From Eubacteriales bacterium (GTDB taxonomy: Bacteria; Bacillota; Clostridia; Lachnospirales; Vallitaleaceae), in NCBI GenBank assembly GCA_030535295.1, contig JAUMXK010000008.1:1-47924 (forward strand): a stretch of DNA of 47,924 nucleotides. Reading direction: 5' to 3'. The notes under the pieces were generated by a model. The model saw only the letters and a list, made by a program, of their open reading frames with translations. It made no database searches and was not told the DNA's origin. Positions 1 to 13,396 of the stretch are shown piece after piece (position 1 is the first letter of the stretch; every line of letters begins with the position of its first letter). The translations under genes were made by a program, and so were the position numbers.

Positions 1-323
1 TTTCGAAAGAGGTCAAGCGTGCCTCGAATATGCTCTCGGCGACGAAAGTTTGGGAGTTATAACAAAGCCCTGTGGACGAAGTGCTTGAAAAATTAGTTTT
101 GTGTAAGCCCTAATTTGAAGCGCGCAAGGAAAATGGAAGCGGCTGCGAAACAGACATTTATATTTTCCGGTGCTTCACCGTCAGACGGAGAGTGCGAGTG
201 CGGCAAATGCGCAGCATTTGGTCTGGTGGTGGCAAGCAGCTAGATAAATTTTAATTTAGAAAACAAAGAAAGAAGAAAAAGAGAGAAAAAACGAGAAAAA
301 AATAAAGAAGAAGAGAATGTATT
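1..323. other. Leader region without an assigned gene
   Basis: No convincing coding frame crosses this stretch. Positions 1-240 look richer in GC than the purine-rich run 241-323 that leads into the first gene. Short perfect hairpins are visible: 90-96 with 110-116 (AAATTAG/CTAATTT), 168-172 with 176-180 (CGGTG/CACCG) and 204-210 with 214-220 (CAAATGC/GCATTTG). It may be a structured RNA, a decayed gene, or the tail of a gene outside the window. A 36-codon frame at 133-243 is discussed under findings. Confidence 0.4.
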
Positions 324-974
324 ATGAAGACAATGAGAGAATATGTAAAAAAACTACAAAAATTAGATAGAAAGCACAGTTTGATTCAAGGCGATAAGGT
401 AGCCCTTTATTTAAGCGGTAGTAGTGACTATCATACTGCCGGATTAAGCCGTAGACAAAAGAATTTTATGAAGATTTTTGCAGGATTAGGCTATCATGTC
501 CCCAATTCGAATTTTCCTTATAATTTGGCATTTCCTTATGAGAAAAAGGAGCAACCGCCTCTTTGGAAAGCAGGAATCAGCAATGTAATCTATTATCAGC
601 ACACCCTTTGGAACAGCAAACTTCGCTATGAATTTTATCGTCATTTGAAACCGATAGAAAAAGCGAAAGAAGCGGTGATTGTGACCAGCAGCTCAGGACT
701 CAATATCTTGATTGAAAGTATCGACTATTTGGATTTATCCAACACGGAGTTGACAGTTTTTGCACTTGGGCCGGTTACCAGAAATCACTGGAAGAAAGAA
801 AAGGGAGAGCTGATTGTATTCAAAGGCAATGTGGATTACTACACCAGATTTTTGGATTCGCATGAAACCGATTATCATATTCGCTCAAATCATTATAACT
901 ACTGCAAATCCAAGAAAATAAAGGAAGTAGTCTATGAATGGTACGAAAAAAGAAATGAAGAGAAAGACAAGTAA
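324..974 (+). CDS. Unrecognised 216-aa protein, possibly alpha/beta-hydrolase-like
   Basis: I do not recognise this family with certainty. The protein has no signal peptide or membrane segment and should be cytosolic. Residues 117-131 form a hydrophobic strand followed by TSSSGLN and a helix, which resembles a degenerate nucleophile elbow centred on Ser123. Downstream strands are followed by Asp171 (GNVDYY) and His190 (SNHYNY), in the order expected for a Ser-Asp-His triad. That assignment is inference. The start has a purine-rich AAGAAGAGAA site upstream. It is the first gene of a close-packed operon; the glycosyltransferase starts about 30 bases after its stop, or overlaps it if an upstream start is used. 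Context suggests a hydrolytic or accessory step in the same pathway. Confidence 0.6.
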   Translation: MKTMREYVKKLQKLDRKHSLIQGDKVALYLSGSSDYHTAGLSRRQKNFMKIFAGLGYHVPNSNFPYNLAFPYEKKEQPPLWKAGISNVIYYQHTLWNSKLRYEFYRHLKPIEKAKEAVIVTSSSGLNILIESIDYLDLSNTELTVFALGPVTRNHWKKEKGELIVFKGNVDYYTRFLDSHETDYHIRSNHYNYCKSKKIKEVVYEWYEKRNEEKDK

Positions 975-1005
975 AGCAAAGTACCGGCCGAAAGAGGAAG
1001 TACGA

Positions 1006-2301
1006 ATGGAAGAGGCAAAGCAAAATCAAGAAAAGCAGCAATTGGATAGAATCAAAATAGATGTTGTTTCCGTGCCTTTCAGTGGACATCTGTATCCGGC
1101 TCTGACCTTAGTCTATCCCTTACTTGCAGAGGAAAAATACCAAATCAGGATATTTACCGGAGAAGAAAAGATAGAATTGGTCAAAAAGCTGGGCTTTGAA
1201 ACAGTTACTCTGTTGAAAGACAAACCGAAGGCTCTGGAAACCATTGCCAATACCAGCATGAAAAATGATTTTCTGGGCTCTCTACGCCAATTTAAGCAAA
1301 GCACTGCTTTGTTATCGGATATTATTGAGGATTTAAAGCAGGAATGGACGAAAAATCGGCCGGATATTGTCTTGGCAGATTTTGTATCGGTAGTTGGCGG
1401 TATGGCATGCAGAGAACTGCAAATTCCTTGGATTACCTGTATTCCCAGTCCTTTTGCCATAGAAAGTCGAAACACTACACCAAGCTATTTAGGAGGTTGG
1501 AAACCACACCCGGGATTGCTTTATCAGTTTCGGGATGCGGTAGGCAGACAGCTGATTCATCAGTTTAAAAGGCTGGCTTTCTTTCTTTTTCGGAAAAATC
1601 TTGGAGCCTATCAGAACTTTGAAGTATTTGATGAAAACGGCTATGAACGGATTTATTCGCCATATTCTATTTTAGGATTGGGGATGGAAGAAATGGAGTT
1701 TCGCAAAGATTTTCCGCCGCAATTTCGCTGGGCCGGCTATCATTGTCTTTCTTTTGAAGAATTGACCACTTGGAGAAAGCCGAGTACAGCACCGGATGAG
1801 AAATTGGTGCTTTTGACTTGCGGCAGTCATTTGCCTTGGGCTAAAAAAGAATTGATTCAAATGGCAGAAATCTTGGGAAGGGATTACCCGCACTTTCAAT
1901 TTCTGATTTCATTCGGAATGAGACATCGGAAAGAGAAAAAACCAAAAAGAATTCGAGATAACATTTGGATTTATCCCTATTTGCCGTATCATCAGGTATT
2001 ACCGGAAGTGGACTATGTGGTGCACCATGGTGGTGCCGGTATTCTCTACAACTGCATTGAATACGGAAAGCCGGCTGTCATCATTCCCAGAGATTATGAC
2101 CAATTTGATTATGCAGTCAGAGCCGATATGGCGGGAATTGCCAAGGTATGTAAAAAAGGAAAAGCAAAGTGCCTTCGCAAGGCATTTAGTGAGCTTGTGA
2201 AAGATAAGGAACAAAAGGCTTTGAAGCAGATGCAAAAAGACTGGTCTAAGTATAAACCGACAAAAGTTTTGCTGGAAGAGATGGATAGATTGCTGAAGTA
2301 A
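1006..2301 (+). CDS. UGT/MGT-type glycosyltransferase (GT1-like)
   Basis: Predicted cytosolic GT-B glycosyltransferase of about 431 residues that would move a sugar from a nucleotide donor to a small lipophilic acceptor. The N-terminal part has the SGHLYPALTLVYPLL segment typical of this family, and the C-terminal half has the donor-binding block HHGGAGILYNCIEYGKP followed by PRDYDQFDYA. This is the UDP-glycosyltransferase/macrolide glycosyltransferase signature. The frame is open back to an ATG at 934, overlapping the previous gene. I prefer 1006 because AGAGGA at 993-998 sits seven bases upstream and the protein then begins just before the first Rossmann strand. The donor and acceptor cannot be read from sequence. 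Its place between the hydrolase-like gene and the SDR gene suggests it decorates the product of this operon. Confidence 0.85.
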   Translation: MEEAKQNQEKQQLDRIKIDVVSVPFSGHLYPALTLVYPLLAEEKYQIRIFTGEEKIELVKKLGFETVTLLKDKPKALETIANTSMKNDFLGSLRQFKQSTALLSDIIEDLKQEWTKNRPDIVLADFVSVVGGMACRELQIPWITCIPSPFAIESRNTTPSYLGGWKPHPGLLYQFRDAVGRQLIHQFKRLAFFLFRKNLGAYQNFEVFDENGYERIYSPYSILGLGMEEMEFRKDFPPQFRWAGYHCLSFEELTTWRKPSTAPDEKLVLLTCGSHLPWAKKELIQMAEILGRDYPHFQFLISFGMRHRKEKKPKRIRDNIWIYPYLPYHQVLPEVDYVVHHGGAGILYNCIEYGKPAVIIPRDYDQFDYAVRADMAGIAKVCKKGKAKCLRKAFSELVKDKEQKALKQMQKDWSKYKPTKVLLEEMDRLLK

Positions 2302-2317
2302 AGCGAAAGGAGAGGCG

Positions 2318-3307
2318 ATGAAGGTATTGGTTACCGGGGCGACCGGCTTTTTGGGAAAGTATATTTTAGAAGAATTAAAAGAGCATAGCTATGATGTGAT
2401 TGCAGTCGGCAGAAATCAAGAAATAGGAGAAGGCCTAGTAGCAGAGGGCATTTCTTTTGTCAAAGCGGACTTTACCAATTATAAAGAGCTGGAAAACGCC
2501 TTTGCCAAAGGGCCGGATTTGGTGGTGCATGCCGGTGCCTTATCCACAGTTTGGGGGAAGTGGCGGGATTTTTATGAGACCAATGTCAAGGCCACGGAGT
2601 ATGTGCTGCGGCTTTGCCGGAAATATGCGGTTAAGCGGATGGTCTATATTTCTTCACCCAGTATTTATGCTTTCGGCAAAGACCAAATCGGGATTCGGGA
2701 ATATACTCCAAAGCATAATGATTTAAATTTCTATATTCGCAGCAAACTGATGGCTGAGCGGAAAATCAAGGATTGTCCGCAAGTAGAAACTGTGATTTTA
2801 CGTCCCAGAGGGCTGATTGGCATTGGGGATACCAGTATTATTCCAAGGGTGCTGCGCATCAGCAGAAAAATCGGAGTGCCGCTTTTAAATGGTGGAAAAC
2901 AGTTGGTGGACTTGACCTGTGTGGAAAATGTAGCGCTGGCTGTTCGTTTGGCACTGGAAAGTCCTGCTGCGGCCGGACAAATTTACAATATTACCAATGA
3001 TGAACCGAGAGAGTTTAAGCGGATTTTGGACGAGTTTTTACGGGAAATGGGGATTCGGCCACGTTATCTGAAAGTGAATGCTACGTCATTATATTATCTT
3101 GCCGTATTTTTGGAAAAGGTCTATCGCACTCTGCATATTTATAAAGAGCCGATGTTTACAAGATATAGTTATTATTTGCTGCGTTACAGCCAAACGCTCA
3201 ATATTGAAAAGGCAAAAATGGAGTTAGGTTATCATCCGAAACTTTCTTTAAGCGAAGGAATTGCGCAGTATGCCCGTCATGAACGAAAGCAAAGCGATAC
3301 ACACTGA
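2318..3307 (+). CDS. NAD(P)-dependent epimerase/3-beta-HSD-like extended SDR
   Basis: Extended short-chain dehydrogenase of 329 residues. The nucleotide-binding motif TGATGFLG lies at residues 6-13, the catalytic serine region ISSPSIY at 111-117, and the YxxxK pair at Tyr139 and Lys143 (YIRSK). The overall pattern resembles the 3-beta-hydroxysteroid dehydrogenase/isomerase branch, which includes OleD, a 2-alkyl-3-oxo acid reductase, as well as nucleotide-sugar epimerases. GAAAGGAGAGG precedes the ATG, and the gene begins 17 bases after the glycosyltransferase stop. In this operon a keto-reduction of a condensing-enzyme product is plausible; a nucleotide-sugar modification feeding the glycosyltransferase is the main alternative. 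The family assignment is firm, the substrate is unknown. Confidence 0.85.
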   Translation: MKVLVTGATGFLGKYILEELKEHSYDVIAVGRNQEIGEGLVAEGISFVKADFTNYKELENAFAKGPDLVVHAGALSTVWGKWRDFYETNVKATEYVLRLCRKYAVKRMVYISSPSIYAFGKDQIGIREYTPKHNDLNFYIRSKLMAERKIKDCPQVETVILRPRGLIGIGDTSIIPRVLRISRKIGVPLLNGGKQLVDLTCVENVALAVRLALESPAAAGQIYNITNDEPREFKRILDEFLREMGIRPRYLKVNATSLYYLAVFLEKVYRTLHIYKEPMFTRYSYYLLRYSQTLNIEKAKMELGYHPKLSLSEGIAQYARHERKQSDTH

Positions 3308-3319
3308 TAGGAAATGAGG

Positions 3320-4144
3320 ATGACAAAAAGCATGAAAACAAAAGTAGAACGAGTACAGTATTTTTCTTGTGGACATTGTGAGAATCATTTAGAATATATT
3401 TTTCGGGAAATTCCGGCAGAAAAAAGGAGATTCGATGCCGGTGTATTTTTAATCAAGCATCGCACACAAGGCTATATTCTCTATGACAGCGGTTATAGTA
3501 GCCGACTGATGGAAAAGAAATTAAAATATCGGATGTATCAAAGGATGAATCCGACTTTTATAGAGCCAAAGTTGGAAATTGCCAATCAGCTAAGGGAAAT
3601 GGGGATTTCTCCGGAGGAAATTCGCTGGTTGATTTTGTCGCATTTGCATCCCGACCATATCGGGGGAGCGGCGGATTTTCCAAAGGCTGAGTATATTTTA
3701 ACACCGGACTTGGCAAGAGAGCTTGGTCGTTTTGGATGGAAAGACATGGTGTTTGCGGAGTTTTTACCGGAGGACTTTCGAGACAGAATTCGGGTAGCAA
3801 GACCAATGCGAATGCAGAAAAACTTTTCTTATCAGGAGAGTTGCGATTTGTTTGGCGATGGTAGCCTGTTGCTTACTTCTATCGACGGTCATGCCACAGG
3901 ACAAGGCTGTTTGTATATTGCGGAAAGAAATCTTCTGTTAGCGGCGGATGTTTGCTGGGGGATAGACCTCATTCCGTATACCAAGAAAATAAGACCGCTT
4001 GCATATCTGGTGCAAAAGGACGGCAAAGCCTATGTGCAAAATATAGATTTATTGAAAAAAATCATGGCGGACGGCATAGAGGTTGTGGTCAGTCATGACC
4101 GCAAAGAACGAATTTTGGAGATTTTAGAGAACGGTTTGCGGTAG
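3320..4144 (+). CDS. Metallo-beta-lactamase-fold hydrolase, lactonase-like
   Basis: Predicted zinc-dependent hydrolase. The metal motif HLHPDH occupies residues 108-113, with further ligands His191 (DGHATGQG), Asp210 (AADVCWG) and His259 (VSHDRKE), the set typical of N-acyl-homoserine-lactone lactonases and related MBL enzymes. About 274 residues, close to family length, with no signal peptide. Three in-frame ATGs compete at 3314, 3320 and 3332; AGGA at 3309-3312 is spaced seven bases from 3320, so that start is used. It begins about 13 bases after the SDR gene and is probably co-transcribed. A lactone, thioester or ester made within the operon would be a reasonable substrate, but this is inference from position and fold. 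Confidence 0.82.
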   Translation: MTKSMKTKVERVQYFSCGHCENHLEYIFREIPAEKRRFDAGVFLIKHRTQGYILYDSGYSSRLMEKKLKYRMYQRMNPTFIEPKLEIANQLREMGISPEEIRWLILSHLHPDHIGGAADFPKAEYILTPDLARELGRFGWKDMVFAEFLPEDFRDRIRVARPMRMQKNFSYQESCDLFGDGSLLLTSIDGHATGQGCLYIAERNLLLAADVCWGIDLIPYTKKIRPLAYLVQKDGKAYVQNIDLLKKIMADGIEVVVSHDRKERILEILENGLR

Positions 4145-4264
4145 CGCTTTTCTGGTCTGAAAATAAGAGATGCAAGCTAACGGAAAAGCTTATTGAGGAA
4201 TTGTAAAGAGGAGAATACCGGCACAAAGAAAATGCATTTATGGAGAAGAGAGAAAAGAGAATAG

Positions 4265-5596
4265 ATGAATAAAATTTTGCTTTTGAAAGAATTATTATAC
4301 AAACGCTGGTTTTTACGGCTAAGGAGTCGTGAACAAGTGGAGCGCTATCAAAGGAAAAGATGGAAGAAACAACTTCAGTATATGGAAAGTCATTCGCCTT
4401 ACTTTGCAAAGCACGGGATTCAAGCCTTGCCTAAGATGAATAAAGCTTTTATGATGGAGCATTTTGACGAGCTGAATACAGTTGGAGTAAAGCGGGATGA
4501 GGCTATGGAAGTAGCTTTGAATGCTGAAAAGAGCAGGGATTTCAGTCCGACTCTAAACGGGGTTTCGGTGGGACTGTCTTCCGGCACCTCCGGTCATCGT
4601 GGTCTTTTTCTCTCTACCGAACGGGAACAGGCACTTTGGGCGGCCAATGTATGTGCCAAGCTGCTCCCGAGAGGAAAGCTTTTCGGGAATCGGATTGCCT
4701 TTTTTTTGAGAGCGGATAATAATTTGTATCATTCGGTCAATTCACCACTCTTGCGATATGAATATTTTGATACTTTTGCAGACATCAGCGAACACATCGA
4801 ACGGTTAAATGCTTATCAACCTACGATTTTGGTTGCGCCGCCTTCTATGCTTTTACGTCTTGGCAAGGAAGTGAGAAGGGGCAATTTGAAAATAAAGCCG
4901 CTGAAAATAATATCCGTAGCAGAAATTTTGGAAGATACGGATAAAAGATATTTGCAAAAAGCATTTCGCACGAAGGTCATTCATCAGGTTTATCAGGCGA
5001 CGGAGGGATTTCTGGCTTGTACCTGTGAGTATGGCAATTTACATATCAATGAGGATGGCATTTTGCTGGAAAAAAGATATTTGGATGAAAATCGCTTTTA
5101 TCCGATTATCACCGACTTGCAAAGGACTTCACAGCCGATGATTCGCTACGAATTAAATGATATTCTGGTGGAGAGCAGGCAGGCTTGTCCTTGCGGCTCA
5201 CCTTTTCTTCGAATTGAACGAATTGAAGGCAGGTCGGATGATATTTTTGTCTTTTCGTCCAGGGAAGAGGGCAAGGTAGTGGAGGTTTTTCCGGATTTTA
5301 TTCGGCGCTGTATTTTGTTTGTAGAGGGTATTTTGGAATATCAAGTCATTCAAAATACCGATGGAAGTTTGGAGATTGCCTGCAATCAACTCTCGGAAGA
5401 AAAAAAACAGGCGATTGTCTATGAATTTGAGAAATTGGCAGAGCAAAAGAAGTTCCTGTTGCCGGAAATTACATTTACGCAATATCATTGGGATAGAAGG
5501 GTGAAATTGAAACGAGTGGTAAGGAAGTCAATAAAAAATATGGATTCAGTTGATAAAGTCTTGAGAAAGGAAAAATATGAATCGAATTGCAATTAA
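4265..5596 (+). CDS. F390-synthetase/phenylacetate-CoA-ligase-like adenylate-forming enzyme
   Basis: Adenylate-forming enzyme of 443 residues, related to coenzyme F390 synthetase and phenylacetate-CoA ligase rather than to long-chain acyl-CoA ligases. The phosphate-binding loop SSGTSGHRG is at residues 105-113, YQATEG at 243-248, RYELNDI at 294-300, and CPCG followed by RIERIEGRSDD at about 308-326. It should activate a carboxylate as an acyl-adenylate, but no carrier protein or obvious acceptor lies in the window. A gap of 120 bases separates it from the MBL gene and holds a purine-rich ribosome site before the ATG but no strong terminator. Its end overlaps the KAS III gene by 20 bases, so translation of the two is probably coupled. 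Homologues annotated only as putative adenylate-forming enzymes are, from memory, often found beside KAS III genes. Confidence 0.82.
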   Translation: MNKILLLKELLYKRWFLRLRSREQVERYQRKRWKKQLQYMESHSPYFAKHGIQALPKMNKAFMMEHFDELNTVGVKRDEAMEVALNAEKSRDFSPTLNGVSVGLSSGTSGHRGLFLSTEREQALWAANVCAKLLPRGKLFGNRIAFFLRADNNLYHSVNSPLLRYEYFDTFADISEHIERLNAYQPTILVAPPSMLLRLGKEVRRGNLKIKPLKIISVAEILEDTDKRYLQKAFRTKVIHQVYQATEGFLACTCEYGNLHINEDGILLEKRYLDENRFYPIITDLQRTSQPMIRYELNDILVESRQACPCGSPFLRIERIEGRSDDIFVFSSREEGKVVEVFPDFIRRCILFVEGILEYQVIQNTDGSLEIACNQLSEEKKQAIVYEFEKLAEQKKFLLPEITFTQYHWDRRVKLKRVVRKSIKNMDSVDKVLRKEKYESNCN

Positions 5597-6503
5597 GGGT
5601 TATGGATATTATGTTCCGGAGAATAAGGTAGTCTTTGAGGATCAAATCAGAAGAAGAGTCGTAGAGGAAACGCAGCTTGAAATGGCTGCGATTGCTTGTC
5701 GGAGAGCACTGGAAAATGCAGGGATGAAGATAGAGGAGATTGACCTTTTGGTGTCCGCCTCGGCCGTAGGGATTCAGCCGATTCCTTGCACAGCAGCGCT
5801 GATTCATGAGCAGGTTGCACGGGGACTGGCGATTCCGGCCATGGATATCAATACTACCTGTACGAGCTTTATTTCGGCATTGGATACGGTTTCTTATATG
5901 GTAGAAGCAGGGAGATATCGGAATGTTTTGATTGTTTCCAGTGAGGTAGGCTCTCAGGGGCTGAATCCAAAGCAGAAAGAGAGCTTTGAACTGTTTGCAG
6001 ACGGTGCGGCGGCTTTCGTATTTAGCAGGACGGAGGATGAGCAGGGAGTGATGTATGCTTTGCAGGAAACCTGGTCGGAAGGAGCACATACGACGGAGAT
6101 TCGTGGCGGTTTGACGGGATTTCATCCGAAATACTATAGTGAGGAAACGAAGGAAGAATATATGTTTGATATGGAAGGAAAAAAGATTTTACTCTTTTCC
6201 TTGAAAAGATTGCCCCTTTTTTTGAAACGCTTTGAAGAGGAAAGCGGACTCTCCATGGATGATATTGATATGTATATTCCGCACCAAGCCAGCAGGGCAT
6301 TGGAGCTTGCCATGAAAAAGCTGGGAATTCCTGAAAATAAGTATATCAATCTGGTACAGGAATACGGCAATATGGTGTCCGTGTCCGTGCCGTTTGCCCT
6401 TTGTAAAGCATTGGAAGAAAAGAAGGTGGAAAAGGGAAATAAATTGGCTCTTTTTGGAACAGCGGCAGGACTGACAATCAATTTATTGGTACTAAAGATT
6501 TAG
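5577..6503 (+). CDS. KAS III-type condensing enzyme (FabH/OleA superfamily)
   Basis: Thiolase-fold beta-ketoacyl synthase III homologue of 308 residues with an intact catalytic triad: Cys95 (NTTCTSF), His236 (IPHQASR) and Asn265 (EYGNMVS). It should load an acyl thioester on Cys95 and condense it with a second acyl unit or transfer it. It is slightly shorter than housekeeping FabH and sits in an operon with no acyl carrier protein, FabD, FabG or FabF, so primary fatty-acid initiation is unlikely. Sequence alone cannot separate decarboxylating FabH-like, OleA-like or acyltransferase roles. The start lies inside the end of the AMP-ligase gene with GAAAGGAAAA upstream. It is the last gene of the tightly packed run that begins at 324. 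Confidence 0.88.
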   Translation: MNRIAIKGYGYYVPENKVVFEDQIRRRVVEETQLEMAAIACRRALENAGMKIEEIDLLVSASAVGIQPIPCTAALIHEQVARGLAIPAMDINTTCTSFISALDTVSYMVEAGRYRNVLIVSSEVGSQGLNPKQKESFELFADGAAAFVFSRTEDEQGVMYALQETWSEGAHTTEIRGGLTGFHPKYYSEETKEEYMFDMEGKKILLFSLKRLPLFLKRFEEESGLSMDDIDMYIPHQASRALELAMKKLGIPENKYINLVQEYGNMVSVSVPFALCKALEEKKVEKGNKLALFGTAAGLTINLLVLKI

Positions 6504-6558: not shown

Positions 6559-8073
6559 ATGAGCGAGCAGCAAGCAGTAAAAAAACAATTTATTTTTATT
6601 ATGACGGACAGCCAAAGACGGGATATGATTAGCAGGCTGAACGAACGAGGGGAAAACATGCATACTCCAAGCTTGGATAAACTGTGTGCACAGGGACTTA
6701 GTTTTCAAGCGGCTTATACTACTCAACCGGTTTGTGGCCCTGCCAGAGCAGGTCTTTTTACCGGAACTTACCCTCATACCAATGGTATGCTGGGCAATAG
6801 TATGGCTCTATCCCCTCATGTACGTACTATTGGTCAAAGATTGAGTGCAGAGGGAATTCACACGGCCTATATCGGTAAATGGCATTTGGATGGTGGAGAT
6901 TACTATGGCGACGGCATTTGTCCGGAGGGTTGGGATAAGGACTATTGGTATGACATGCGCAATTATTTGGATGAATTGAGCGAAGAAGATAGGATACGCT
7001 CCAGAAAGCTGACTACCGCTCTTACGGGAGAAGGTATCACGGAGGATTTTACCTTTGCATACCGTTGTACCCAAAGAGCCATTGATTTTATTGAAAAGCA
7101 CAAAGATGAGGATTATTTATTGGTGCTTTCTTATGACGAACCGCATGATCCGTATTTATCACCAAAGCATTTCTATGAGCCTTTTTACGAAAGACGTTTA
7201 AAGAAAGAGAATCAATATATGGACTTTGGCAGTTTGCCGCCACATGTGCAGGTATGGCATGAGAGGTTTAAGGACTTGGACTTGGAGAGTGATTATGGCT
7301 TGGGACTGCTTGGTGCGAATTCTTATGTCGATTCGCAAATCGGCAGGGTACTGGATGCGGCTGAGAAGGATGCGCCGCAGGCTTTGCTGCTATATACTTC
7401 CGACCATGGTGAGTCGCATGGTTCGCATGGTATTTTTTCCAAAGGGCCGGCGATGTATGAAGAGATTGCCAATATTCCGCTGATTATTCGGTGGAAGGAT
7501 AAAGTGAAAGCAGATATTTCTACGGAGATGCCGGTTTCGCATATTGACTTAGTGCCGACTATTTTGGAATATTTTGAGATGGAAAGACCGGAATCTTTAG
7601 AGGGAGTGAGCCTACTTTCTGAGTTGCAAAATCCGGACATTTCAGAAAAAAAGGAAAACAGGCCGGTATTTATAGAGTTCAACCGCTATGAAATTGACCA
7701 TGACGGATTTGGTGGATATCAGCCGGTACGGGCGGTGGTCAAGGGCAAGTGGAAGTTGACAGTTAGTTTATTGAGCAGTGATGAGCTGTACCATTTGGCG
7801 GACGATCCGGAGGAAATGAAGAATTTGATTCATTCCGAGGAGCATAAAGTGATTCGTGATGAATTGCATGATTTGATTCTGGAATGGCAAAACCAAACCA
7901 GAGATCCGATGCGTGGCTATTACTGGGAGGCAAGGCCATGGAGAACAGATAGGCAAAATGTGACATGGAATTGCGGCGGCTATGCCAGAAGGCGGCATAG
8001 GGAAAAGGGAGAGGTCGGAGAGATTGACTATTCGACCGGATTGCCGATTACCGAGTATGCAAGGAAATATTAG
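6559..8073 (+). CDS. Cytosolic type I sulfatase (formylglycine-dependent family)
   Basis: Sulfatase/alkaline-phosphatase superfamily hydrolase of 504 residues. The maturation motif CGPAR at residues 59-63 provides Cys59 for conversion to formylglycine. Metal-binding and active-site elements include MTDSQRRD near 15-22, a GKWH block near residue 112 and TSDHGESHG near 280. It lacks a signal peptide, so it should act inside the cell on a small sulfate ester or a related phosphonate or phosphate ester. No anaerobic sulfatase-maturating enzyme is encoded in the window. GGAGGAGG stands seven bases before the ATG. It follows the KAS III gene after 55 bases that contain only a weak hairpin (AAAGG/CCTTT near 6518-6532), so read-through from the operon is plausible. 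Confidence 0.88.
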   Translation: MSEQQAVKKQFIFIMTDSQRRDMISRLNERGENMHTPSLDKLCAQGLSFQAAYTTQPVCGPARAGLFTGTYPHTNGMLGNSMALSPHVRTIGQRLSAEGIHTAYIGKWHLDGGDYYGDGICPEGWDKDYWYDMRNYLDELSEEDRIRSRKLTTALTGEGITEDFTFAYRCTQRAIDFIEKHKDEDYLLVLSYDEPHDPYLSPKHFYEPFYERRLKKENQYMDFGSLPPHVQVWHERFKDLDLESDYGLGLLGANSYVDSQIGRVLDAAEKDAPQALLLYTSDHGESHGSHGIFSKGPAMYEEIANIPLIIRWKDKVKADISTEMPVSHIDLVPTILEYFEMERPESLEGVSLLSELQNPDISEKKENRPVFIEFNRYEIDHDGFGGYQPVRAVVKGKWKLTVSLLSSDELYHLADDPEEMKNLIHSEEHKVIRDELHDLILEWQNQTRDPMRGYYWEARPWRTDRQNVTWNCGGYARRRHREKGEVGEIDYSTGLPITEYARKY

Positions 8074-10868: not shown

Positions 10869-11357
10869 ATGAAAATAAAGAATAAAAGAGCATTTATTAT
10901 TTTGATTTCTATTTATATTTTTGGCTGGTTTTATTTTAATGTTATGTCAGGCGGTATAGAATCTATTGGCCCAAAAGTTTGGATGGCAATATCGGTTGTT
11001 TTAATTCCGCTTATTTGGGCGCAGACCAATATAGACGGACATAGGTTGAATAATTCTATTATGTTAAGCTATGTAGTTAATTTGATTTTTATGGCTTTGG
11101 GAGATGCGATAGTTTTGCAATCGCTAGGCGGCAATAAAATAAGCGTGATTTCGGCGTTTTTCTCCTCTTTGTTCATCATTTTTATGATAATTGGCAGTGG
11201 TATATTGTTTGCCTTTTTTATAATATGGAAATTTGGACATATCAGTGATTATCTTAAGTTTCATGATGTCATGACCAAAGAACAACATGAATGCTTCGTA
11301 AAATTCATAAGAAAATGGGAAGAGAGATTTTGTAAAAAAAGAAAAAGGGATGAATGA
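10869..11357 (+). CDS. Small four-TM membrane protein, paralogue of 12902
   Basis: A hydrophobic protein of 162 residues, of no family known to me, with about four membrane helices and a basic C-terminal tail (EERFCKKRKRDE). It is paralogous to the gene at 12902-13396: both share GWF/GWI near residue 20, an IPxxWxQTNI(D/E)G block, KFG(H/D)ISDY and a nearly identical last 30 residues beginning MTKEQHE. The ribosome site is a modest AAGGAAAAG. It follows the pseudogene, the same order as the intact pair downstream. The stop codon lies within the stem of a bidirectional terminator that separates it from the convergent gene at 11409. Confidence 0.65.
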   Translation: MKIKNKRAFIILISIYIFGWFYFNVMSGGIESIGPKVWMAISVVLIPLIWAQTNIDGHRLNNSIMLSYVVNLIFMALGDAIVLQSLGGNKISVISAFFSSLFIIFMIIGSGILFAFFIIWKFGHISDYLKFHDVMTKEQHECFVKFIRKWEERFCKKRKRDE

Positions 11358-12829: not shown

Positions 12830-12901
12830 TTTTGAAAACAATTTTTAAATAGTAAAAGACTTAATTTGAGATGAAGTATATTCAAGTGGTTGGAGGAAAA
12901 A

Positions 12902-13396
12902 ATGAATTTTAGAATTAAAAACAGAAAGAGATTTCGACTGCTTATTTCTTTATATATTTTGGGCTGGATTGTTTTTTGTGTCGTACTGGGAGGTGTGGGT
13001 TCAGCTAGTTCAAAAGCATGGACGGCAATAACGGTTGTTTTGATTCCAGCTATTTTTTGGCAAACAAATATTGAAGGGAAAAGATTAACGAAACTTGTTT
13101 TATTATGTTATGTATTTAATTTTTTTCTTATTTTTTTGGGAAACGCAATAGCTTTGATGTTACAAGGGGCAAGTTTTGGGTTTGCAATGGAATTTTGGTT
13201 TGTTTCTGTAGTTACTACGGTTTTGATGATTGTAGCCAGTATCTTTTTGTTGTTTTTTATCGTATGGAAATTTGGAGATATCAGTGATTATTCTAAATTC
13301 GAGGATGTCATGACCAAGGAACAACACGAACGCTTCGTAAAATTCATAAGAAAATGGGAAGAGAGATTTGGTAAAAAAAGAAAAAGGGATGAATGA
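12902..13396 (+). CDS. Small four-TM membrane protein, paralogue of 10869
   Basis: About 164 residues, four predicted membrane helices and a basic tail (EERFGKKRKRDE). Function unknown. The frame is open to a TTG at 12890, but GGAGG at 12892-12896 is five bases before the ATG at 12902, which decides the start. The last 90 bases of the gene are nearly identical to those of its paralogue at 10869-11357 while the rest has diverged, so the C-terminal tail is either under constraint or homogenised by gene conversion. Unlike the first copy, the downstream sequence has lost the matching arm of the terminator. Confidence 0.65.
   Translation: MNFRIKNRKRFRLLISLYILGWIVFCVVLGGVGSASSKAWTAITVVLIPAIFWQTNIEGKRLTKLVLLCYVFNFFLIFLGNAIALMLQGASFGFAMEFWFVSVVTTVLMIVASIFLLFFIVWKFGDISDYSKFEDVMTKEQHERFVKFIRKWEERFGKKRKRDE

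Follow-up and report, generated by a model that had tools for sequence, protein, structure and literature searches.

The closest described counterparts of the gene cluster analysed here are the loci of the TIGR02304 family ("F390 synthetase-related protein", NCBIfam), the OleABCD enzymes, and the beta-ketoacyl synthase III (KAS III) enzymes MxnB and CorB of the myxopyronin and corallopyronin pathways. In OleA, Glu117 serves as the general base and is followed by Pro (PMC7064751). MxnB and CorB have Val (Val94) where PpyS and OleA have Glu, a difference explained by substrates with an already acidic alpha-carbon (Kresovic et al., PMC4578411). A published survey reported no ole clusters in Firmicutes (PMC7158056).

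The cluster spans positions 324 to 6,503 of a 47,924-nucleotide stretch, here called the window, from a Eubacteriales bacterium of the family Vallitaleaceae (contig JAUMXK010000008.1, assembly GCA_030535295.1). It encodes a small alpha/beta-hydrolase, a family 1 glycosyltransferase (GT1), an extended short-chain dehydrogenase/reductase (SDR), a metallo-beta-lactamase (MBL)-fold hydrolase, an adenylate-forming ligase (AMP in the gene orders below) and a KAS III. A preliminary description had named these six classes, all of which were confirmed by family matches or fold, and had called the locus possibly Ole-like, a term that holds as an analogy only, for how the pathway may work. Our analysis favours, with a probability of about 0.5, one dedicated, horizontally spread, accessory pathway whose product would be a glycosylated lipid or small molecule derived from fatty acyl chains (of beta-hydroxyacyl type). 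This reading is based on a core gene order kept across phyla, intact catalytic residues, and the co-occurrence of a second gene module.

A conserved core and a second module

Relatives of the ligase were sought in one genome per species across 84,980 species, which yielded at least 573 confirmed relatives. The 88 loci compared comprise the best 80 of these, a same-genus locus and matches from a plasmid collection. In 77 of the 88 loci the four core genes stood in order, as SDR-MBL-AMP-KAS or, circularly permuted, as KAS-(ATP-grasp)-SDR-MBL-AMP; the best-scoring 80 include many from Streptococcus, and the counts are not independent events. The most frequent arrangement was GT1-SDR-MBL-AMP-KAS (43 loci), followed by SDR-MBL-AMP-KAS (13), KAS-GRASP-SDR-MBL-AMP-GNAT (5), KAS-SDR-MBL-AMP (4) and SDR-MBL-AMP-KAS-GT1 (3). 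Two loci each showed GT21-hydrolase-SDR-MBL-AMP-KAS (Fusobacterium) and GT21-hydrolase-GT1-SDR-MBL-AMP-KAS (Enterococcus), where GT21 denotes a family 21-like glycosyltransferase.

Core loci occurred in Bacillota, Fusobacteriota, Pseudomonadota, Campylobacterota, Actinomycetota, Mycoplasmatota and Saccharimonadota, and the core is far from restricted to the anaerobic Firmicutes in which it was first noted. Nor is the glycosyltransferase an addition peculiar to this organism, since a GT1 gene lies inside the cassette in approximately 60% of the 88 loci. The distribution is patchy. Of 398 genomes sampled evenly across the window's phylum, nine carried TIGR02304, and in seven of these (the window's own included) cassette genes adjoined it; within the host's family, two of 22 genomes exceeded the cut-off. 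The core was present in 65 of 247 sampled Streptococcus genomes (~26%), as well as in oral Fusobacterium and in Enterococcus, and an Escherichia coli version in 672 of 5426 complete genomes (12%); a literature search found no function for the latter, narGHJI-linked cluster. In the KAS tree, the KAS III of the window genus is sister to the streptococcal ones (91/91, below the starred threshold). This placement and the patchy distribution suggest that the core has spread horizontally.

A second module, short SDR-GT21-hydrolase-GT1, is joined to the core in the window genus and in Enterococcus and is unlinked in some Streptococcus. In one such Streptococcus genome, 95% identical over 12.3 kb to the S. 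parasanguinis locus compared, the module lies ~78 kb from GT1-SDR-MBL-AMP-KAS. Among the 247 Streptococcus-genus genomes, the hydrolase was present in 23, the core in 65 and both in 21 (hypergeometric 7e-12, uncorrected for kinship). The hydrolase family was also found in two of the 398 genomes of the window's phylum, both of which have the core. Because this co-occurrence persists when the two are unlinked, the second module and the core are functionally linked. The S. sanguinis cores have no adjoining GT1, which fits a supply of this enzyme by the unlinked module. Two Streptococcus-genus genomes (G552 and G609) carry the module hydrolase with no TIGR02304 core found; these are the two exceptions to the co-occurrence.

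Every enzyme class of the cluster is common, which would be expected if these were ordinary fatty-acid synthesis genes or chance neighbours with no dedicated product. That explanation is scarcely credible and is refuted by the conserved co-occurrence: the neighbours of the ligase do not vary at random, the order is conserved across phyla, the unlinked module accompanies the core, and a separate fabH lies next to a fabK-like gene in this genome.

Catalytic features of KAS III and its partners

The KAS III (P0006, 5577-6503, plus strand) has the intact triad reported in the preliminary description, here Cys95-His236-Asn265, and the triad is conserved in 86 of 86 cluster proteins. At the column of OleA Glu117, these proteins have Ile (84) or Leu (2), with the next Pro kept in all 86; the OleA sequence used for the alignment was identical to PDB 3row and related entries. 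The family profile scored 311 bits against MxnB, 297 against CorB, 260 against FabH and 111 against OleA, and MxnB and CorB likewise ranked first among fold matches of the AlphaFold model (pLDDT 90.6). In the tree, four FabH sequences, including the genome's own on a long branch, formed one clade (97/98) apart from the cluster and MxnB/CorB, which were joined by a branch supported at 92/89 with the order inside it not settled. The position outside FabH and the separate fabH gene reject a housekeeping FabH identity for P0006 and, with the conserved ligase neighbourhood, uphold the earlier idea of a dedicated pathway.

In FabH, the N-terminal DEWI-RTGI segment contacts CoA. Exactly 18 residues are missing from the aligned segment in 74 of the 86 cluster proteins, P0006 included, and this contact makes a changed donor likely, as judged from the alignment. 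Another 11 proteins are full-length and belong to the KAS-first or proteobacterial type; one was not scorable. By analogy with MxnB and CorB, in which the Glu base is likewise absent, the cluster KAS III should use an activated nucleophile, either a malonyl unit or a beta-ketoacyl chain.

The same relationship raises the alternative of a pyrone or polyketide-type small molecule, a signal or antibiotic made by MxnB/CorB-like joining of two chains, with a macrolide-type GT1 as tailoring or self-protection enzyme. In both sequence and fold, the closest solved structures are those of MxnB and CorB, the Glu base is replaced in both groups (Val94 in MxnB/CorB, PMC4578411), and the GT1 (P0002, 934-2301, plus strand) weakly matches macrolide glycosyltransferase models. 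We nevertheless regard this product as unlikely: the cassette has no recurrent gene for a polyketide synthase (PKS), acyl carrier protein, transporter or regulator, and a reductase and an adenylating enzyme, both in the invariant core, would be unneeded for a pyrone. P0002 also exceeded the cut-offs of PF06722, PF04101 and PF00201, as expected of a UGT/MGT-type enzyme, and its nearest solved structures are YjiC and relatives. The start given for it (934) is doubtful: the ATG at 1006 agrees better with the homologue in the same-genus locus L013, and the true start is probably nearer to it.

The remaining core enzymes are well conserved at their active sites. The extended SDR (P0003, 2318-3307, plus strand) carries GxxGxxG and Tyr139-x3-Lys143, with Tyr and Lys conserved in 85 of 85 sequences, and its two best NCBIfam models (NF042423/NF042422) are OleD-type 2-alkyl-3-oxoalkanoate reductases, matched at 202 and 183 bits, below the 580-bit cut-off. 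The MBL-fold enzyme (P0004, 3314-4144, plus strand; PF00753) has the HxHxDH-H-D-H pattern, and all seven metal-ligand positions are conserved in 82 of 82; the proposed likeness to lactonases was borne out in that AttM/AiiA models matched best, though below cut-off. The ligase (P0005, 4265-5596, plus strand) belongs, as proposed, to the F390-synthetase-like branch, being a full member of TIGR02304 (567.1 bits, cut-off 251.9), and the P-loop residues, YxxTE, Asp299, Arg323 and C-terminal Lys414 are conserved in 89 of 89. Since their catalytic residues are conserved, all three enzymes should be active. Comparison of the ligase with OleC was made through NCBIfam models rather than by direct alignment; the matches to P0005 include TIGR02304 and PaaK/F390-type models and none of OleC type.

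The small hydrolase (P0001, 324-974, plus strand) has homologues in G021, a genome of the same genus, and also in Fusobacterium, Enterococcus and Streptococcus. Profile searches gave no Pfam match above cut-off (the sole match, HEM4, was sub-threshold) and no usable NCBIfam match, and Foldseek alone gave no match with E < 0.001. Alpha/beta hydrolases and minimal lipases occupy the top fold matches of its AlphaFold model (pLDDT 79) throughout (Z 9-11), including the A. fulgidus lipase (VIA Z 11.1) and TesA (10.0). Six homologues all keep Ser123, Asp171 and His190, which occupy the nucleophile-elbow, acid and His positions; the Ser lies on the elbow that joins strand 116-122 to helix 125-133. 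Consistent fold matches and conserved predicted triad positions thus point to an alpha/beta-hydrolase. OleB is a haloalkane-dehalogenase-type enzyme with an Asp nucleophile; the fold matches shown for P0001 include neither OleB nor a haloalkane dehalogenase, an absence that carries no weight.

In a true Ole-type pathway, two acyl-CoAs would be condensed by the KAS III to a 2-alkyl-3-keto acid, which the SDR would reduce; the ligase would then close a beta-lactone, and a hydrolase would form an olefin or open the lactone. The enzyme classes do correspond, and the best curated model of the SDR is OleD. Such a pathway is, however, very doubtful, and the suggested membership of the Ole family is rejected on the replacement of Glu117 by Ile/Leu in 86 of 86 proteins despite the retained Pro, on the remoteness of OleA (111 bits versus 311 for MxnB) and on a Ser elbow in place of the OleB Asp. 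Among the models listed for the ligase are TIGR02304 and PaaK, and none is of OleC type. The survey that found no ole clusters in Firmicutes (PMC7158056) is also consistent with the locus being something else.

Assembly break and surroundings of the locus

The six open reading frames are all intact and co-directional and lie where the preliminary description had placed them. They are tightly packed, with a single 120-base gap 5' of the AMP gene and short overlaps between the hydrolase and GT1 frames and between the AMP and KAS frames. The GC-content of the locus, at 42%, is similar to that of the rest of the window (40%). Inspection of the cassette revealed no carrier protein, as noted earlier. 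Promoter and terminator scans of the locus returned signals near shuffle level.

The proposed cluster start at 324 required revision. Base 1 of the window falls inside an interspersed repeat (1-260; 24 full or partial copies in the genome), which separates the hydrolase gene from the GT21 gene of contig C36 and is also found at or near the ends of contigs C36, C70 and C44; it probably broke the assembly. Window positions 1-34 match the end of C36 over 34 bases at 100% identity. On C36, a GT21-like glycosyltransferase gene (45-1208, minus strand; PF13506, 83 bits) adjoins a short SDR gene (1210-1983, minus strand), and both would precede the hydrolase gene. In G021, a module of short SDR, GT21-like, hydrolase and GT1 genes is separated by two unrelated genes from SDR, MBL and AMP, after which come another alpha/beta hydrolase and KAS. 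From this gene order and the overlap we infer a complete locus that reads short SDR, GT21, repeat, hydrolase, GT1, SDR, MBL, AMP and KAS, with the junction itself deduced. The second hydrolase of G021 (HYD2, 257 aa, between AMP and KAS) was rejected as a P0001 relative, having no significant profile match, and is absent from the window locus.

The added genes bear on a sphingolipid-like membrane glycolipid, for which a KAS III would replace serine palmitoyltransferase and the extended SDR, GNAT and GT21 would resemble CerR, bCerS and ceramide glucosyltransferase, respectively. The bacterial ceramide route combines a synthase, an acyltransferase and a reductase (PMC11087976); the window genus has the GT21 and two SDRs, and Bacillales versions have a GNAT (PF13480). 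This product is quite improbable, as the glycosyltransferase-bearing versions have no condensing enzyme dependent on pyridoxal phosphate (PLP) and no amino-group source, and the SDR is no more than a supposed counterpart of CerR. No PLP-dependent serine palmitoyltransferase was found among the cassette genes of the window genus, in a search of the locus rather than the rest of the genome.

Several neighbouring genes were recorded. A sulfatase-family protein (PF00884) with a CxPxR-type motif (VCGPARAG) is encoded at 6559-8073 (plus strand), 55 bases 3' of the KAS III gene; it was rejected as a cassette member because it is missing 3' of KAS in L013, where another gene lies. That gene (L013, 6043-6354), directly 3' of KAS III, encodes a small protein that by eye resembles L-rhamnose mutarotase. 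Near the short SDR and GT21 genes on C36, positions 3529-4419 (plus strand) encode a 296-aa protein with a DLTGGSE stretch, by its look a lone CARF-type (Card1/Can-like) nuclease. The window also encodes, at 10869-11357 and 12890-13396, a pair of related small membrane proteins with near-identical C-termini (MTKEQHE..FVKFIRKWEERF) and other genes between them, which looks like a local duplication.

Proposed pathway and comparison with described systems

In the favoured pathway, each step of which is predicted from gene content, order, catalytic residues and co-occurrence, the KAS III would load an acyl chain on Cys95 and condense it with a malonyl unit or, as in MxnB/CorB, an activated beta-ketoacyl chain; an enzyme that lacks the OleA Glu base would not be expected to join two plain acyl chains by an unassisted Claisen condensation. 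The extended SDR would reduce the keto group to an alcohol, and the MBL-fold enzyme would hydrolyse a (thio)ester or open a lactone. The F390/PaaK-type enzyme would then adenylate the freed acid for transfer to CoA or directly to a hydroxyl or amino group. Sugars would be added by GT1 and, in the window genus and relatives, by the membrane GT21, with the short SDR and the serine alpha/beta-hydrolase acting in tailoring or trimming.

Several points weigh against this pathway. Bacillales and alphaproteobacterial versions have no glycosyltransferases and instead carry ATP-grasp and GNAT (PF13480) genes, and the E. coli version (L008, 7155-14036, adjoining narGHJI) reads KAS III-SDR-MBL-F390 and continues with PAP2, a sterol-desaturase-type gene and a desaturase, both comparisons being by neighbourhood alone. 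Because of these other end genes, sugar attachment is a branch-specific decoration and not part of the core. MGT-class GT1 enzymes can also serve in drug inactivation or add sugars to non-lipid acceptors, and F390/PaaK-type ligases often act on aryl acids, so that the acid need not be fatty. The link between C36 and the window is deduced from a 34-base overlap within a repeat and from synteny with G021. Product and substrate are themselves predictions.

More tentatively, the cassette may specify an undescribed class of acyl-derived glycolipids or related glycosides, made by a mobile pathway of Streptococcus (~26% of those sampled), Fusobacterium and Enterococcus and, as a related version, of E. 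coli (12% of complete genomes), with a KAS III of unusual mode and a shortened substrate-side segment. If a glycolipid or signal is made, it would be a common, so far undescribed molecule of human-associated bacteria. The cassette pairs a constant core with exchangeable ends (glycosyltransferases, ATP-grasp with GNAT, or desaturases), which makes the chemistry directly testable. A literature search, with subscription journals mostly outside its coverage, found no assigned reaction, product or paper for the cluster. The ligase family already has a name; the cluster would be newly described here as far as that search goes, which is not proof of novelty.

Among known systems, the bacterial ceramide pathway (Spt, bCerS, CerR) resembles some cassette versions in its reductase, acyltransferase and GT21-like enzymes and differs from this locus in its PLP-dependent synthase. 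In rhamnolipid-type synthesis, the GT1-type enzyme RhlB glycosylates a beta-hydroxy fatty acid. The logic proposed here is alike, except that the window locus lacks RhlA and the acyl part would come from the KAS III, SDR, MBL and ligase. OleABCD has four enzyme classes in common with the locus, and P0003 is related to OleD; the locus differs in its KAS III without Glu117, its F390/PaaK-type ligase, its serine hydrolase, and its extra MBL and glycosyltransferases. MxnB and CorB share the Cys-His-Asn triad and the replacement of the Glu base by Val, Ile or Leu, whereas the window operon stands alone without a PKS, and MxnB retains the 18-residue segment that is absent from most of the cluster proteins. 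The other TIGR02304 loci have the same SDR, MBL and KAS III neighbours and a core no different from that of the window, to which the window genus adds the GT21, short SDR and hydrolase module within the locus.

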